Assembly (NCBI RefSeq): GCF_000422345.1
Contig: NZ_AULP01000003.1
Coordinates: forward strand, 248,001-312,000
DNA: 64,000 nucleotides
Source: Neomelitea salexigens DSM 19753
GTDB taxonomy: Bacteria; Pseudomonadota; Gammaproteobacteria; Pseudomonadales; Spongiibacteraceae
Direction of reading: 5' to 3'
The notes below the pieces were generated by a model. The model did no database searches and had not been told where the DNA came from. It worked only from the letters and a program-made list of their open reading frames with translations. A program made the translations under genes and the position numbers. Position 1 is the stretch's first letter. Each line of letters begins with the position of its first letter. Of this stretch, positions 837-27,721 are shown one piece after another.

Positions 837-3485
837 TTATTTTTGTAGCTGTCTCAAAACGTACTGCAAAATGCCGCCGCAGCGGAAGTATTCCGCCTCC
901 TGCAGGGTGTCGATCCGGCTGTGGGCAAGCACCTCATGACGGTTGCCGTCGGCCCGCGACAGGATTACTCGCACGGCTTGCTTGGGCGTTAATTCAGCGT
1001 CGCAGGGAATCAAATCAACTTCTTCCAAACCGTTGAGATCAAGCATGGTCAAGGAAACTTCACCGTCTAATTCAAGCGGTAAAACGCCCATACCAATTAG
1101 GTTGGAGCGGTGAATGCGCTCGAAACTCTCAGCAATCACGGCGCGAACGCCTAGTAGCAATGTGCCTTTGGCAGCCCAGTCACGGCTAGAGCCCGTGCCG
1201 TATTGTTTGCCGGCGATAACAACGAGCGGCGTGTTGGTCGCGCGGTACTTTTCTGCTGCTGCAAAAATGGTGGTGACATCCTCACCATTGGGGGCCAGTG
1301 TAAAGCCGCCTTCTTTCTCGACCATGCGATTGTTCAGCCGGGTATTGGCGAAGGTGCCCCGTAGCATCACTTCGTGGTTGCCCCGCCGCGAACCATAGGA
1401 GTTAAAGTCAGCAGGCTCGATACCCAAGCTTTGTAGATAGTGGCCGGCGGGACTATCGTCGGCGATTTTACCCGCGGGCGAAATATGGTCGGTGGTGATG
1501 CTGTCGCCAAATACGCCAAGTATCCTGCCGTTGCGCAAGGCATCGAGCTGTTGTTTGGGAGCGGCGATATCGCTAAAGAAACTGGGCAGGCGAATATAAC
1601 TGGAGTCATCTTGCCAGTGGTAGGTCTGCCCGGTGGGGGCGTCGAGCTGGCGCCATTCCTCGGTGCCTTTAAAAACGTCGTCGTAGGCCTCTCGATACAT
1701 GCCACCGCTGACGATTTTGCGCACCTCATGGATTTCTGCGGAAGTCGGCCACAGATCTCGCAGAAACACTGGTTGTTCCATACTGTCGTGTGCGATGGGG
1801 TCGTTTTGCAGGTCGATCAAACTGGTGCCGGCCAGCGCAAAGGCGACGACCAGCGGCGGCGAAGCTAGCCAGCTCGCTTTAATTTGCGGGTGAATGCGGC
1901 CCTCAAAGTTTCGGTTGCCGGAGAGCACCGCCGACACCAGCATATCGCCGTCGTCGATGGCCCTGGCAACAGGCTCCGGCAGCGGACCGGAATTGCCAAT
2001 ACAGGTGGTGCAGCCGTAGCCAACGATATCAAAGCCCAGTGAATCCAAATCGTCTTGCAGGCCGCTATCGGCCAGATATTGGCTGACAACTTTGGAGCCG
2101 GGGGCCAGGGAGGTTTTCACCCATGGCTTAACACGAAGACCGCGCTCGCGGGCTTTGCGTGCCAGCAGCCCGGCGGCGATCATCACATCGGGATTAGACG
2201 TATTGGTGCAGCTGGTAATGGCCGCCAATACAACGTCGCCGTGCTGCAGGGGTTGGTTCATGTCCGGGATGGGTGTTTGCTGGTTGAGGTCGCGCCCCTG
2301 CAATTCAATACAGTCGCGCATTGCTTGGCCCAATTGAGGCAGTGCGACGCGGTCCTGTGGCCGACTGGGGCCAGCCAGGCTGGGTTCTACAGCGCTTAGG
2401 TCGAGGCTCAATGTGGTGGTAAATACCGGCTTGTCGCCAGCGGAGCGCCACAGCCCCTGCGCTTTGCAATAGGCCTCTGTCAGCGCAATGGTATCGGCGC
2501 TGCGGCCGGAGAGCTTCATGTAGGCCAGAGTGGCGTCGTCGACGGGAAAGTAACCACAGGTGGCGCCGTACTCAGGTGCCATATTGGCGATGGTCGCCCG
2601 GTCGGCAACGCTCAGTTCGCCGAGGCCGTCGCCGAAAAATTCCACAAACTTGCCAACAACGCCCTGTTTGCGCAGTAGCTCAACCACGGTCAGCACCAGG
2701 TCGGTGGCGGTAACCCCCTCGCGAAGGGCGCCGCGCATTTCAAAACCGACAACATCGGGAACCAGCATGGAATAGGGCTGGCCCAGCAGCGCCGCTTCGG
2801 CTTCTATACCGCCAACTCCCCAGCCCAATACGCCCAGGCCATTGACCATCGGGGTGTGGCTGTCGGTGCCCAGGACGGTGTCGGGGTAGGCGAGAGGGCC
2901 GCCGTCATCCTGCCCTTGAAATACCACCTGCGCTAAGTATTCGAGGTTAACCTGATGGCAAATGCCTGTGCCCGGTGGCACAACATTGAAGTTTTCAAAG
3001 GCGGACTGCCCCCACTTTAAAAACCGGTAGCGCTCGACATTGCGCTGCATTTCCTTGCTAACGTTTTCCTGAAAGGCCTGGGCGGAGCCAAATTGGTCGA
3101 CGGTCACCGAGTGGTCGATAACCAAGTCCACGGGGATTTGCGGGTTGATTACTGACACGTCGCCACCGCGCTGGGCGACGGCATCGCGCATGGCCGCCAG
3201 ATCGACTATGGCAGGCACACCTGTGAAGTCCTGCATCAGTACACGTGCCGGCGAGAAGTTGACATCGGCGCCGCCGCTGGCCTTATCTGCCCATTGGCAC
3301 AGGGTGTTGATGATATGCTCATCGACCTGCGCGCCGTCGAAGTGACGCAACTGATTTTCCAGCAAAATTTTAAGCGACTTGGGCAATCGCTCAATGCCGG
3401 GTGAATCGAGTTTTTTCAGGTCGTAATAGCGGAAGTGTTTTCCTGAACAAGTCAGCTCAGAGAGCCATGATTCCCTACTTTTCAT
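837..3485 (-). CDS. acnA: Aconitate hydratase A
   Basis: Cytoplasmic TCA-cycle enzyme that isomerises citrate to isocitrate using a [4Fe-4S] cluster. At 882 residues it is close to the E. coli AcnA/IRP type (891). The three cluster cysteines are visible: C426 in TSCTNTSNP, and C492 and C495 in GYGCTTCIGNSG. The substrate-binding DSHTPMVNGLGVLGWGVGG segment and the C-terminal swivel domain with GKQYGTGSSRDWAAKG are intact. The ATG at 3483-3485 gives the expected N-terminus. It diverges from gdhA, leaving about 210 bases for both promoters. A family assignment as a 2-methylcitrate-specific AcnD is less likely because no prp genes are nearby. I see no damage. Confidence 0.96.
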   Translation of the reverse strand: MKSRESWLSELTCSGKHFRYYDLKKLDSPGIERLPKSLKILLENQLRHFDGAQVDEHIINTLCQWADKASGGADVNFSPARVLMQDFTGVPAIVDLAAMRDAVAQRGGDVSVINPQIPVDLVIDHSVTVDQFGSAQAFQENVSKEMQRNVERYRFLKWGQSAFENFNVVPPGTGICHQVNLEYLAQVVFQGQDDGGPLAYPDTVLGTDSHTPMVNGLGVLGWGVGGIEAEAALLGQPYSMLVPDVVGFEMRGALREGVTATDLVLTVVELLRKQGVVGKFVEFFGDGLGELSVADRATIANMAPEYGATCGYFPVDDATLAYMKLSGRSADTIALTEAYCKAQGLWRSAGDKPVFTTTLSLDLSAVEPSLAGPSRPQDRVALPQLGQAMRDCIELQGRDLNQQTPIPDMNQPLQHGDVVLAAITSCTNTSNPDVMIAAGLLARKARERGLRVKPWVKTSLAPGSKVVSQYLADSGLQDDLDSLGFDIVGYGCTTCIGNSGPLPEPVARAIDDGDMLVSAVLSGNRNFEGRIHPQIKASWLASPPLVVAFALAGTSLIDLQNDPIAHDSMEQPVFLRDLWPTSAEIHEVRKIVSGGMYREAYDDVFKGTEEWRQLDAPTGQTYHWQDDSSYIRLPSFFSDIAAPKQQLDALRNGRILGVFGDSITTDHISPAGKIADDSPAGHYLQSLGIEPADFNSYGSRRGNHEVMLRGTFANTRLNNRMVEKEGGFTLAPNGEDVTTIFAAAEKYRATNTPLVVIAGKQYGTGSSRDWAAKGTLLLGVRAVIAESFERIHRSNLIGMGVLPLELDGEVSLTMLDLNGLEEVDLIPCDAELTPKQAVRVILSRADGNRHEVLAHSRIDTLQEAEYFRCGGILQYVLRQLQK

Positions 3486-24284: not shown

Positions 24285-25700
24285 ATGCTGAAAAAAATCC
24301 TAATTGCCAACCGTGGTGAGATTGCGGTTCGTATCGTTCGTGCCTGTGCCGAGATGGGTGTTCGCTCAGCGGCCATCTACACCGAACCCGATCGGTTTTC
24401 CCTGCATGTTAAGCGCGCCGACGAGGCCTACAACGTTGGCGCGGACCCCCTGGAGGGGTATTTGAATCCTCGTAAGCTGGTGGCGCTGGCGGTAGAAACG
24501 GGCTGCGATGGCTTGCACCCCGGCTACGGTTTTCTTTCCGAAAATGCCGAATTGGCGGAAATCTGTGCTCAGCGCGGCATTACCTTTATTGGCCCCAGTG
24601 CAGAGGTTATCCGTCGTATGGGCGATAAAACCGAGGCTCGCCGGGCGATGGTGGCGGCGGGTGTGCCGGTGACACCGGGTACTGAAGACAATCTCGCCGA
24701 TGTCGATGAGGCGGTGTCGGTCGCTGCAGGCATCGGCTATCCGGTGATGTTGAAGGCCACCTCGGGTGGCGGCGGCCGGGGCATTCGCCGCTGCGACAGC
24801 GAAGCAGATCTGCGACGTCAGTTCAGTCGCGTGGTCTCAGAGGCCACCAAGGCTTTCGGTCGCGCTGATGTGTTTTTGGAGAAGTGTATTGTCAATCCGC
24901 GCCATATTGAGGCGCAGATTTTGGCCGACTCACAGGGCAATGTTATCCACCTGTATGAGCGTGATTGTTCGATACAGCGCCGTAATCAAAAGCTGATTGA
25001 AATTGCGCCATCGCCTCAGCTCACGCCAGAGCAGCGCGCGTATATCGGCGACTTAGCGGTGCGCGCGGCAGAGGCAGTGGGTTATGAAAATGCCGGCACC
25101 GTTGAGTTTTTGCTTGCCGATAATCAAATTTATTTTATGGAGATGAATACCCGCGTTCAGGTGGAGCACACCATCACCGAGCAGATTACCGGGGTTGATA
25201 TTGTGCGCGAGCAAATCCGCATTGCCTCCGGCCTGCCGCTTGGGTATCGGCAAGAGGATATTAGCTATCGCGGCTACGCGCTGCAGTTCCGCGTGAACGC
25301 CGAAGACCCCAAGAACGGTTTTTTGCCCAGCTTCGGCAAAATCAGCCGCTACTACGCTCCCGGCGGCCCGGGCGTGCGCACCGACACCGCGATATATACC
25401 GGCTACAGCATACCGCCGTATTTTGATTCGATGTGCCTGAAACTGGTGGTTTGGGGACTGACCTGGGAAGAGACGCTCAACCGCGGCGCGCGGGCGTTGA
25501 ATGATATGCGTGTTCAGGGCGTACGAACCACCGCGCCTTACTACCAGCAAATACTCAAGCACGCGGACTTCCGCGCCGCGCATTTCGACACTAGCTTTGT
25601 TGATAGTCACCCCGAACTGATCGAGTACTCCGATAAGAGTCGGCCCGAAGAGCTTGCCCTGGCGGTGGCGGCGGCGATCGCTGCTCACGCAGGACTGTAA
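24285..25700 (+). CDS. pycA: Pyruvate carboxylase subunit A (biotin carboxylase)
   Basis: A 471-residue ATP-grasp biotin carboxylase. The N-terminal domain starts with KKILIANRGEIAVRIVRACAEMG; the ATP-binding glycine loop is KATSGGGGRGIRRC; VEFLLADNQIYFMEMNTRVQVEHTITE holds the metal and biotin-site residues (E, N, R). It could be mistaken for AccC, but it is followed directly by the transcarboxylase/biotin subunit and preceded by a LysR gene, the Pseudomonas pycA-pycB order. Together they carboxylate pyruvate to oxaloacetate, refilling the TCA cycle. The start has AGGA 10 bases upstream. Confidence 0.9.
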   Translation: MLKKILIANRGEIAVRIVRACAEMGVRSAAIYTEPDRFSLHVKRADEAYNVGADPLEGYLNPRKLVALAVETGCDGLHPGYGFLSENAELAEICAQRGITFIGPSAEVIRRMGDKTEARRAMVAAGVPVTPGTEDNLADVDEAVSVAAGIGYPVMLKATSGGGGRGIRRCDSEADLRRQFSRVVSEATKAFGRADVFLEKCIVNPRHIEAQILADSQGNVIHLYERDCSIQRRNQKLIEIAPSPQLTPEQRAYIGDLAVRAAEAVGYENAGTVEFLLADNQIYFMEMNTRVQVEHTITEQITGVDIVREQIRIASGLPLGYRQEDISYRGYALQFRVNAEDPKNGFLPSFGKISRYYAPGGPGVRTDTAIYTGYSIPPYFDSMCLKLVVWGLTWEETLNRGARALNDMRVQGVRTTAPYYQQILKHADFRAAHFDTSFVDSHPELIEYSDKSRPEELALAVAAAIAAHAGL

Positions 25701-25760
25701 ACCCAATAATGATTGCAGCCGCTCAGCGGCCACGATGTGCACACAGGAAAGGAAGGCACT

Positions 25761-27560
25761 ATGACTACGCCGATTAAAATTACCGATGTCGCCCTGCGAG
25801 ATGGCCATCAATCGCTTATTGCCACTCGGCTGCGCACCGAGGATATGTTGCCGGTGTGCGCCGAGCTGGATGCGCTGGACTATTGGTCTCTGGAGGTATG
25901 GGGCGGCGCAACCTTTGATGCCTGCGTGCGTTTTTTGAAAGAGGACCCCTGGGAGCGACTGCGCAAGTTGCGTGAGGCGCTGCCTAATAGCCAGCTGCAA
26001 ATGTTGCTGCGTGGCCAGAACCTGCTGGGTTACCGCCACTATGCTGACGACGTCGTCGAGGCCTTTATTGCCAAGGCGGCAGACAATGGCATGGATATCT
26101 TCCGGATATTCGATGCGATGAACGATGTGCGTAATTTGCAGACGGCGATCGCCGCCGTGAAGGCCGCCGGCAAACATGCCCAGGGTACTATTTGCTACAC
26201 CACCAGCCCCGTGCACAACACGGAAACGTTCGTTGAGCAGGCGCGTAAGATGGTGGACATGGGCGTCGATTCCCTGGCCATCAAAGATATGGCGGGCCTG
26301 CTTACGCCGAGTACTACCGGTGAGCTGGTTGCGGCCTTAAAAGCCGAGTTTGACCTGCCGCTGGCTCTGCATTCGCATATGACATCGGGTTTGGCTGGGC
26401 TGTGTCAGCTGAAGGCGGTAGAGGCGGGCGTGGATATCATCGATACCGCTATTTCAGCCTTTGCCAACGGCACCAGCCACCCGGCGACCGAAACCATGGT
26501 TGCCGCCCTAAAAGACACGCCCTATGACCCGGGCCTGGATTTGGAAGTTTTGCAAAGCGTTGCCAAAAAACTGTGGGCGGTGCGCAAGAAATACCGGCAG
26601 TTTGAGAGTGAGTTTACTCGCGAAGATGTCAGCGTTCAGATAAACCAAGTGCCGGGCGGCATGATGTCTAACCTGGCGAACCAGCTAAAAGAGCAGGGTG
26701 CCTTGCACCGTATCGATGAAGTCTTCGCGGAGATCCCTCGGGTGCGCAAGGACCTGGGCTTCCCGCCGCTGGTAACGCCCACCTCGCAGATTGTCGGTAC
26801 CCAGGCGGTGATGAATATTCTGGCGGAGGCGCCCTATACCACCATAACCAATGAGGTGAAGCGCTATTTGCAGGGCCACTACGGCGCGGCGCTGGGAACG
26901 GTGAACGAAGAGTTGCGAGCCAAGGCGATTGGCAGTGAGGCGGTAATCGATGTTCGCCCTGCGGATTTGCTGCCGCCAGAAATGGAGAAATTGCGCGCAG
27001 AAATTGGCGAGCTGGCCGACAGTGAAGAGGATGTACTGAGTTACGCCATGTTCCCGGATCTGGGCCGCAGCTACCTCCAGCAGCGTCGCGATGGCACATT
27101 GCAACCCGAGGTTTTAGAGCCGGAACTCGAGGCCGATCGCCCCGCCGCGGAAAATGCGGTGCCCACCGAATTTGTGATCGATGTTCACGGTGAAAGTTAT
27201 CAAGTGGCGATTACCGGTGTCGGCATTAAGGGTAAAGGCAAACGGCACCTGTACATGACGCTGGACGGTATGCCAGAGGAAGTGGTTTTCGAGGCATTGA
27301 ACGAATACCAGCGCGACGGGGGGAGTGGGCGTCGGCAGGCAACTCAGCCGGGGCATGTAACAACGAATATGCCGGGCAATATCGTCGATGTATTAGTGGC
27401 GCAGGGCGATGTGGTTAAGGCGGGCCAGCCAGTGCTAGTCACTGAGGCGATGAAAATGGAAGCGGAAGTGCAGGCGCCGATTGATGGCACAGTTCGTGAT
27501 ATCCACGTTAGTAAGGGAGATCGCGTCACTCCGGGTGAGGTATTGATAGAAATTGAGTAA
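25761..27560 (+). CDS. pycB: Pyruvate carboxylase subunit B (carboxyltransferase plus biotin carrier)
   Basis: A 599-residue subunit. The HMGL-like carboxyltransferase domain begins ITDVALRDGHQSLIATRLRTEDM and has the metal and substrate region SLAIKDMAGLLTP and LPLALHSHMTSGLA. A conserved carboxylase domain covers roughly 290-500, and the C-terminal biotinyl domain has the acceptor lysine K565 in TEAMKMEAEVQAPIDG. Oxaloacetate decarboxylase alpha has the same architecture, but no beta or gamma Na+-pump subunits are near. The start at 25761 is set by AGGAAAGGAAGG; an ATG 48 bases upstream is not supported. The gap to pycA is 60 bases. Confidence 0.92.
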   Translation: MTTPIKITDVALRDGHQSLIATRLRTEDMLPVCAELDALDYWSLEVWGGATFDACVRFLKEDPWERLRKLREALPNSQLQMLLRGQNLLGYRHYADDVVEAFIAKAADNGMDIFRIFDAMNDVRNLQTAIAAVKAAGKHAQGTICYTTSPVHNTETFVEQARKMVDMGVDSLAIKDMAGLLTPSTTGELVAALKAEFDLPLALHSHMTSGLAGLCQLKAVEAGVDIIDTAISAFANGTSHPATETMVAALKDTPYDPGLDLEVLQSVAKKLWAVRKKYRQFESEFTREDVSVQINQVPGGMMSNLANQLKEQGALHRIDEVFAEIPRVRKDLGFPPLVTPTSQIVGTQAVMNILAEAPYTTITNEVKRYLQGHYGAALGTVNEELRAKAIGSEAVIDVRPADLLPPEMEKLRAEIGELADSEEDVLSYAMFPDLGRSYLQQRRDGTLQPEVLEPELEADRPAAENAVPTEFVIDVHGESYQVAITGVGIKGKGKRHLYMTLDGMPEEVVFEALNEYQRDGGSGRRQATQPGHVTTNMPGNIVDVLVAQGDVVKAGQPVLVTEAMKMEAEVQAPIDGTVRDIHVSKGDRVTPGEVLIEIE

Positions 27561-27576: not shown

Positions 27577-27605
27577 TTGCAAACGGCAATGATAATGATT
27601 ATCGT
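27577..27605 (+). promoter_or_regulatory. Promoter overlapped by a near-perfect Fur box
   Basis: A -35-like TTGCAA (27577-27582) and a -10-like TATCGT (27600-27605) are separated by 17 bases. Across the spacer and -10 lies TGATAATGATTATCG (27590-27604), matching the 7-1-7 Fur consensus TGATAATNATTATCA at 14 of its 15 positions (counting N). Binding of Fur with Fe(II) would block RNA polymerase, so transcription should rise under iron starvation. The next open reading frame is about 290 bases away, beyond a terminator, which points to a non-coding product. Confidence 0.75.
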
Positions 27606-27611
27606 TTAGTT

Positions 27612-27721
27612 GTGTCGCGGCGGGATGGTGTCTCCCCCCTCTCTCTGACGTTCTTATCCCGTTGCGACCTCTCTCCGTATTGGCCCCGGTTGCTTACCCT
27701 GCTTCCGGGGCTCTTTTTTTT
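27612..27721 (+). ncRNA. Candidate Fur-regulated small RNA (about 110 nt)
   Basis: Between the Fur-box promoter and a strong intrinsic terminator lies about 110 bases with no credible coding sequence. The size and layout match iron-responsive sRNAs such as RyhB and PrrF, but I see no primary-sequence match to either. The segment contains two C/U-rich stretches, TCTCCCCCCTCTCTCT (27631-27646) and CCTCTCTCC (27668-27676), which could pair with purine-rich ribosome binding sites. The transcription start is inferred from the -10 position. An alternative is a 3'-UTR piece of pycB ending at the same terminator. No genome-wide target search was possible. Confidence 0.55.
27683..27721 (+). terminator. 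Intrinsic terminator with eight T residues
   Basis: GCCCCGG at 27683-27689 pairs with CCGGGGC at 27705-27711 over a 15-base loop, then a T, a C and eight T residues. It ends the candidate sRNA and would also stop read-through from pycB. Confidence 0.8.

Follow-up and report, generated by a model that had tools for sequence, protein, structure and literature searches.

sodB and sdhC are confirmed targets of the small RNAs PrrF and RyhB according to passages of a report on such RNAs (PMC7377471), and the same passages introduce BrrF of Burkholderia as a low-iron RNA with sodB, sdhC and acnA as predicted targets and with no similarity to known Fur RNAs. FsrA of Bacillus and IsrR of Staphylococcus are presented, in the parts of PMC9410917 dealing with them, as Fur-repressed RNAs with C-rich motifs. 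For sX13 of Xanthomonas (RF02232), passages of PMC3771888 describe C-rich apical loops which act with G-rich motifs near start codons. Our literature search found no paper joining Spongiibacter, small RNA and Fur, and the records for PrrF with Cellvibrio and for Fur-regulated sRNAs with Cellvibrionales contain, as listed, no report of the RNA described below.

The locus studied here lies in a stretch of 64,000 nt, referred to as the window (positions 248001 to 312000 of contig C3 in the 3.44-Mb genome G000). The genus, taken as Spongiibacter and placed in Cellvibrionales by the NCBI taxonomy, was represented by 18 genomes including G000. A preliminary description of the window had suggested an iron-regulated sRNA family with C/U-rich seeds masking ribosome sites, a suggestion supported by the presence of Fur box and RNA in 13 of the 18 genomes, by covariation and by complementarity to sodB and sdhC. 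The reading we favour, with a probability of roughly 0.8, is that the locus encodes a Fur-repressed, trans-acting, iron-sparing sRNA which would mask sodB and dock on the sdhC mRNA.

Promoter and architecture of the predicted RNA

The unit is located on the plus strand and begins with a -35 hexamer TTGCAA (27577–27582), followed after 17 nt by the -10 hexamer TATCGT (27600–27605). The same spacing is found in all 13 genomes carrying both Fur box and RNA, and the -10 hexamer reads TATCGT, TATCAT, TATTGT or TACTAT among homologues. A promoter consensus scan missed this promoter (8 of 12 matches, threshold 9). The Fur box TGATAATGATTATCG (27590–27604) extends over the spacer and the -10 hexamer and agrees with TGATAATNATTATCA at 13 of 14 informative positions, or 14 of 15 if the N is counted; 11 to 14 of 14 positions are matched in the 13 genomes of the genus. 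In a whole-genome scan of G000 the Fur box is one of three sites with zero mismatches to TGATAATNATTATCR. The other two are located at G000:C2:154010-154024 and G000:C6:151847-151861 (L049, L051).

The predicted small RNA (27612–27721), whose start near 27612 we infer from the promoter, is supported by its fold, its family of homologues and covariation. The folding energy of -47.8 kcal/mol compares with -27.4 kcal/mol for shuffled sequences (z -6.1), and none of 200 shuffles was as good. A 5’ hairpin is predicted at 27614–27668, with 13 of the 14 pairs of the main helix changed on both sides in the homologues, and is capped in the predicted fold by an apical loop UCCCCCCUCUCUCU of 14 nt (27633–27646, seed 1). 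In G000, G013, G007 and G001 this loop, extended by positions 27647–27652 (GACGUU), is predicted to base-pair with the ribosome site of sodB. The linker CUCUCUCCGUAUU of 13 nt (27669–27681, seed 2), single-stranded in the predicted fold, contains UCUCUCC in all 13 Fur-box members. Both CCTCTCTC stretches are present, one in the apical loop and one in the linker. The unit is closed by a Rho-independent terminator with a U tract (27682–27721), recognized by terminator scan and fold, and its helix, helix 3, is paired in 93.2% of the alignment cells.

No ORF of at least 20 aa starting in the first 70 nt is common to all homologues, and G007, G001, G009 and G006 have none at all. When aligned, G000 and G007 differ by a 1-nt indel that shifts the 70-aa GTG frame at 27612. 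The preliminary description had listed a Fur box with 14 of 15 consensus positions, a promoter with 17-bp spacing, a strong terminator about 110 nt further on and before the next gene, two C/U-rich stretches and no credible protein; all of this was borne out, with the terminator ending at about 27721, and the Fur-boxed promoter with its terminated RNA unit is, as a feature of the sequence, confirmed as real.

Distribution and conservation in the genus

Of 96 genomes searched at the DNA level five have the element, G000 among them, and all five belong to the genus; a covariance model built from them gave matches in 15 of the 18 genus genomes at E ≤ 0.1. With this first model a Fur box with 11–14 of 14 positions was found 23–29 nt upstream of the model start in 12 genomes; the other 26 loci read along with these 12 showed 5–10 of 14 positions in the same stretch of about 100 nt. 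A second covariance model added G005, giving Fur box plus RNA in 13 of the 18 genomes. The covariance search proposed in the preliminary description did recover a family, and the lack of conservation between Fur box and terminator which it had named as grounds for refutation was not observed. G006 retains a homologue of the RNA with a decayed Fur box (9 of 14) and no promoter, G011 probably carries a relic of the RNA, as judged from its sequence, and G002, G010 and G015 have no credible match to the RNA models; in all counts below, G006 and G011 are treated as genomes without Fur-controlled RNA. An 8-bp inverted repeat, AGCGTTCA...TGAACGCT, is located at the Fur-box position of G006 (L078, upstream of 1501), which is possibly the site of another regulator or simple decay.

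Of the 30 base pairs in alignment A5 (12 members), 23 have changed on both sides; 90.7% of the cells are paired compared with 65.9% after shuffling, and the covariation score is 0.684 as against 0.224 for shuffled and 0.065–0.168 for slid alignments; A5 was fitted to the structure, which leans these figures in the structure’s favour. Left out of A5 were L017, L018 and L021–L023, which have no Fur box, and G005, found later.

Outside the genus, the order-wide searches (R1, R2) gave many low-scoring matches; some were read among L024–L044 and L192–L205 and among the out-of-genus loci of the second-model reading, and the best of those read had 10 of 14 Fur-box positions. Two loci from a scan of the collection, L046 (Aeromonas) and L048 (Agaribacterium), have no Fur box by eye and were read as terminators. 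An RNA resembling two hairpins also turned up in three genomes of a different family (f2, genus g3), at L025:1501-1587 and, on the minus strand, at L030:1501-1588 and L029:1501-1595, with the linker UAUCUCCGCAUU and a terminator similar to that of the Spongiibacter RNA. There is no clear Fur box at these loci (7, 8 and 10 of 14), and two of the genomes (G021, G065) have matches to the PrrF model elsewhere.

Complementarity to sodB

In G000, G013, G007 and G001 the sodB ribosome site AACGUCAGGAGAGA mirrors the RNA loop CUCUCUCUGACGUU, and the predicted duplex consists of 8 bp (7 in G001), one bulged base and 5 bp more. In G004, G012 and G014 it is the linker UGUCUCUCC that matches sodB GGAGAGACA over 8–9 bp, and in the third subclade (group B) the linker GAUUCUCUCC matches GGAGAGAAUCA over 10–11 bp. 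Seen from the mRNA side, the sodB of every subclade pairs best, on average, with the RNA of its own subclade. The mean duplex energy of first-subclade sodB is -20.8 kcal/mol with its own loop versus -11.8 and -6.9 kcal/mol with the loops of the other subclades; the sodB of G004, G012 and G014 reaches -17.1 kcal/mol with its own linker versus -13.0 and -15.6 kcal/mol, and group-B sodB -18.8 versus -13.1 and -13.5 kcal/mol. Seen from the RNA side, the first subclade prefers its own sodB (-20.8 versus -12.9 and -14.2 kcal/mol), as does the third (-18.8 versus -13.9 and -15.6 kcal/mol), while the linkers of the second subclade do not (own -17.1, first -17.3, third -13.5 kcal/mol). For the sodB of G004, four of the five group-B linkers (-18.2 to -19.5 kcal/mol) are better than its own (-15.4 kcal/mol).

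When scored for accessibility, with opening costs included, sodB ranks 8 of 348 gene starts in G000, where seven background genes outrank it. The 347 background starts, the acnA start among them, come from mechanical calling in the window and in twenty sampled stretches. In each of the 11 Fur-box genomes run with their own RNA (all of the 13 except G013 and G003) the sodB ribosome site ranks 1–7 of 151 gene starts, the background being a random 150 of the 347, taken from G000 for the other genomes as well. G003 gave no sodB match, and no acnB stretch was taken from it. C/U-rich seeds fit many purine-rich ribosome sites. The GGAGAGA of sodB alone proves nothing, since it is kept in G002, G011, G015 and G006, all lacking the Fur-controlled RNA.

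The sdhC leader and other candidate targets

The motif TATAATGC is located 134–169 nt before the sdhC start codon in all 18 genomes, so the sdhC leader is probably transcribed. Within this leader all 13 genomes with Fur-controlled RNA have GGAGAG 77–82 nt ahead of the start, and none of the five without it does (G002, G006, G010, G011, G015); for comparison, only 9 of the 347 background gene starts have GGAGAG within 80 nt upstream. Local folds of all 13 present the motif on a hairpin tip and leave 4–6 of its bases unpaired; folding of the whole leader retains this hairpin in 11 of 13 (missing in G004 and G012). Stem sequences differ between genomes in a compensated way, e.g. CCGGG/CCCGG, CUGAG/CUCAG and CCGAA/UUCGG. 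In G002, G011 and G006 a CCG..CGG hairpin folds locally, with a different loop sequence. On trees of the sdh locus and of leuC the absence or decay of the RNA amounts to three changes (G010; G002 with G011 and G015; G006), two of which are forced by well-supported branches, and the absence from G010 might be ancestral; three events are few.

The linker of the third subclade is predicted to pair with 11–12 consecutive bases of the sdhC loop, G-U pairs included, and that of G007 and G001 meets only 6 bp. The accessibility rank of the sdhC leader in G000 is unfavourable (103 of 348), with the hairpin cut in this test because the scored stretch began at -80. The sdhC leader (L109:1835-1959, minus strand, and 17 orthologues) seems to have more structure than the GGAGAG hairpin; many folds contain a GCCC/GGGC or GCUC/GAGC stem flanked by pairing of CCAC with the weak ribosome site GUGUGG.

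Among the other candidates, acnB ranks 2 of 348 in G000 versus 36–143 of 151 in the other ten genomes run, and was rejected as a conserved target, being strong in G000 only among the genomes run; G013 has the same printed stretch. Both acnA and leuC rank 10 of 348 in G000. leuC, taken along as a bystander, encodes an iron-sulphur enzyme and is therefore not a clean negative control. The preliminary description had advised target prediction on mRNAs of iron-using proteins, with acnA as its example. For sodB and sdhC the complementarity tracks the presence and the changes of the RNA; acnA itself was dropped, as its ribosome sites in 17 genomes, read by eye, offered no extended conserved match and no convincing conservation. 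The aconitase-domain gene acnA is located in the same window (1827–3278, minus strand), and its ribosome site in G000, GAGGGGGC, could pair with the C-rich loop, a match not observed in most other acnA sites read.

Gene neighbourhood and alternative explanations

In G000 the element is located between a pycA-pycB pair and a TonB-dependent receptor gene. The pycA-like biotin carboxylase subunit (24285–25700, plus strand; NCBIfam NF005525, 934.6 bits) is followed by pycB, pyruvate carboxylase subunit B (25713–27560, plus strand; NF006761, 894.8 bits), the usual upstream neighbour of the RNA gene and found immediately 5’ of it in 12 of 14 compared loci (13 Fur-box genomes and G006). In G008 and G005 the RNA does not adjoin pycB, and a gene takes its place which we read from its protein sequence as von-Willebrand-like; a Pfam search of this protein gave no match. 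The position after the pyruvate carboxylase genes given in the preliminary description stands, and so does the TonB receptor in G000, although that neighbour turned out to be incidental. A scan of viral contigs with the TonB receptor as query found nothing.

The locus might instead serve the TonB receptor gene as a Fur-controlled 5’ leader or attenuator, or be the site where the pyc operon yields a short read-through RNA. The receptor gene start, 171 nt downstream on the same strand, would fit this view, iron receptors being classic Fur targets. However, the receptor lies within 1.5 kb of the RNA in only 3 of 15 compared loci (G000, G013, G007), while 13 genomes retain the Fur box together with RNA and terminator, so the RNA is not read as a leader of the TonB gene; since pycB is also lacking beside it in G008 and G005, the RNA gene is an independent unit, which speaks against read-through too. 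We rejected the leader reading and give very little credence to either variant. Only a small chance is left for a Fur-controlled RNA whose main action is to bind a protein or some other partner, with purine-rich ribosome sites giving the sodB and sdhC pairings as a by-product. Many genes do score well with seeds that match generic ribosome sites, but generic matching would lead one to expect neither sodB pairing specific to subclades nor the joint loss of RNA and sdhC loop.

The likeliest of the alternatives, although we consider it unlikely as well, is a strongly remodelled PrrF, i.e. the same ancestral Fur-controlled RNA with a body changed past recognition in Spongiibacter. The layout is the same, with the Fur box directly on the promoter, a PrrF trait, in 13 of 18 genomes, and within the genus the PrrF model (RF00444) scores best at the locus itself, first in G012 (35.4 bits, E 3.7e-4) and then in G007 (26.7 bits). 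In the order as a whole the gathering cut-off of 90 bits is exceeded in 9 of 244 genomes, which served as positive control, and at E ≤ 0.001 the model matches 40 of 244 genomes in ten families other than that of Spongiibacter. Moreover, two of four Pseudomonas PrrF loci have a biotin-dependent carboxylase gene about 1.2 kb upstream (43% identity to PycA, 40–45% to the PycB carrier domain). On the other hand, none of the 18 genus genomes reaches the cut-off, and the G012 match falls to 16.4 bits once the Fur box is removed, rank 14 behind other sub-threshold families, so that the PrrF-model score rests on Fur box and terminator. From the 29 PrrF-model matches read we defined a core, CATCAnGCTAnTCAC, which precedes the terminator. 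It is present in 23 of the 29 (the exceptions are three copies of G120 and one each of G021, G079 and G076) and in none of 14 Spongiibacter RNAs. In local alignments of seven bodies with 23 of PrrF type, five stay at the shuffle level; the score of G007 was exceeded by 8 of 200 shuffles and that of G012 by 1 of 200. The Pseudomonas carboxylase we read as a low-identity paralogue, probably an unrelated acyl-CoA carboxylase, and no pyc gene lies near ten PrrF loci of other families. Membership in PrrF was rejected on these grounds; common descent with PrrF keeps a low probability. PrrF-like RNAs below the Rfam gathering score were also seen in several families of the order (L206–L225); several genomes have them in tandem, and G120 has three copies in succession (L218).

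Proposed function and seed turnover

We return to the Fur-repressed, iron-sparing sRNA as the preferred reading. The computation establishes the promoter and Fur-box layout, the conserved structure, the distribution in the genus and a complementarity which tracks the RNA. On the strength of the sequence comparisons a Fur-controlled sRNA gene is well supported, and the sodB and sdhC patterns strongly suggest an iron-sparing role. With plentiful iron, Fe-Fur would cover the -10 region; when iron is scarce, the RNA of about 110 nt would be made and would base-pair through its two exposed C/U-rich seeds, one in the apical loop of the 5’ hairpin and one in the linker that precedes the terminator. 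It would cover the Shine-Dalgarno sequence of sodB and dock on the GGAGAG loop in the 5’ leader of the sdhC mRNA, and the likely outcome is that less Fe-SOD and less succinate dehydrogenase are made. Repression as the sign of regulation, a lowering of translation by docking on the sdhC leader and the help of an RNA chaperone, Hfq or another, are presumed parts of this scheme.

More tentatively, and with somewhat less than even odds, RNA and targets may co-evolve by seed turnover. The sodB contact would have moved between loop (CUCUCUCUGACGUU) and linker (UGUCUCUCC or GAUUCUCUCC) within the genus, while sdhC would keep a dedicated receptor hairpin that exposes GGAGAG on its tip, some 80 nt ahead of the start codon, the loop sequence decaying when the RNA is lost. 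If true, the genus offers a natural series of an sRNA which changes its pairing site yet keeps its target, and decay and seed change within one genus would make sRNA-target co-evolution directly testable. PrrF-like RNAs are widespread in the order, with none at the Rfam cut-off in the 18 Spongiibacter genomes searched; these mostly carry an RNA without demonstrable relation to PrrF that seemingly does the same job. It would represent another, apparently non-homologous iron-sparing solution, here in a gammaproteobacterium whose RNA directs C/U-rich seeds at a ribosome site and at an mRNA leader.

Comparison with known iron-sparing RNAs

Two properties place the RNA, as predicted, in the Fur-repressed iron-sparing functional class, which it would join as a new family: a short terminated transcript whose sigma-70-type promoter is overlaid by a Fur box, and complementarity to mRNAs of iron enzymes that is conserved along with the RNA for sodB and sdhC and not conserved for acnB. 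The preliminary description had also spoken of a new family of RyhB/PrrF-type layout, which agrees with the Rfam scans: at gathering scores the window contains only a tRNA, and no family reaches its cut-off at this locus. Compared by description and not by sequence, BrrF differs in having no Fur box of its own and probably depending on hemP, according to passages of PMC7377471, and FsrA and IsrR, likewise compared by description, belong to another phylum, the Spongiibacter seeds being located in a hairpin loop and a linker. The sX13 model scores 13.8 bits at this locus (cut-off 50); sX13 has three C-rich loops, and the passages of PMC3771888 on it do not describe it as an iron-sparing RNA.

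The likeness to PrrF consists of a Fur box on the promoter, an RNA of about 110 nt and a 5’ hairpin, then a pyrimidine-rich stretch and a strong terminator; the two differ in the core CATCAnGCTAnTCAC, in their neighbours and in the RNA body, which in five of seven Spongiibacter RNAs tested cannot be aligned above chance. RyhB (Rfam RF00057) differs in that its model is absent among the Rfam matches of this locus up to E 10. The best reading of the sequence evidence is nevertheless that the RNA works like PrrF and RyhB, homology with either being no part of the claim. As with RyhB in the passages of PMC7377471 and PMC9410917 devoted to it, we would be dealing with a Fur-repressed iron-sparing RNA aimed at sodB and sdhC.
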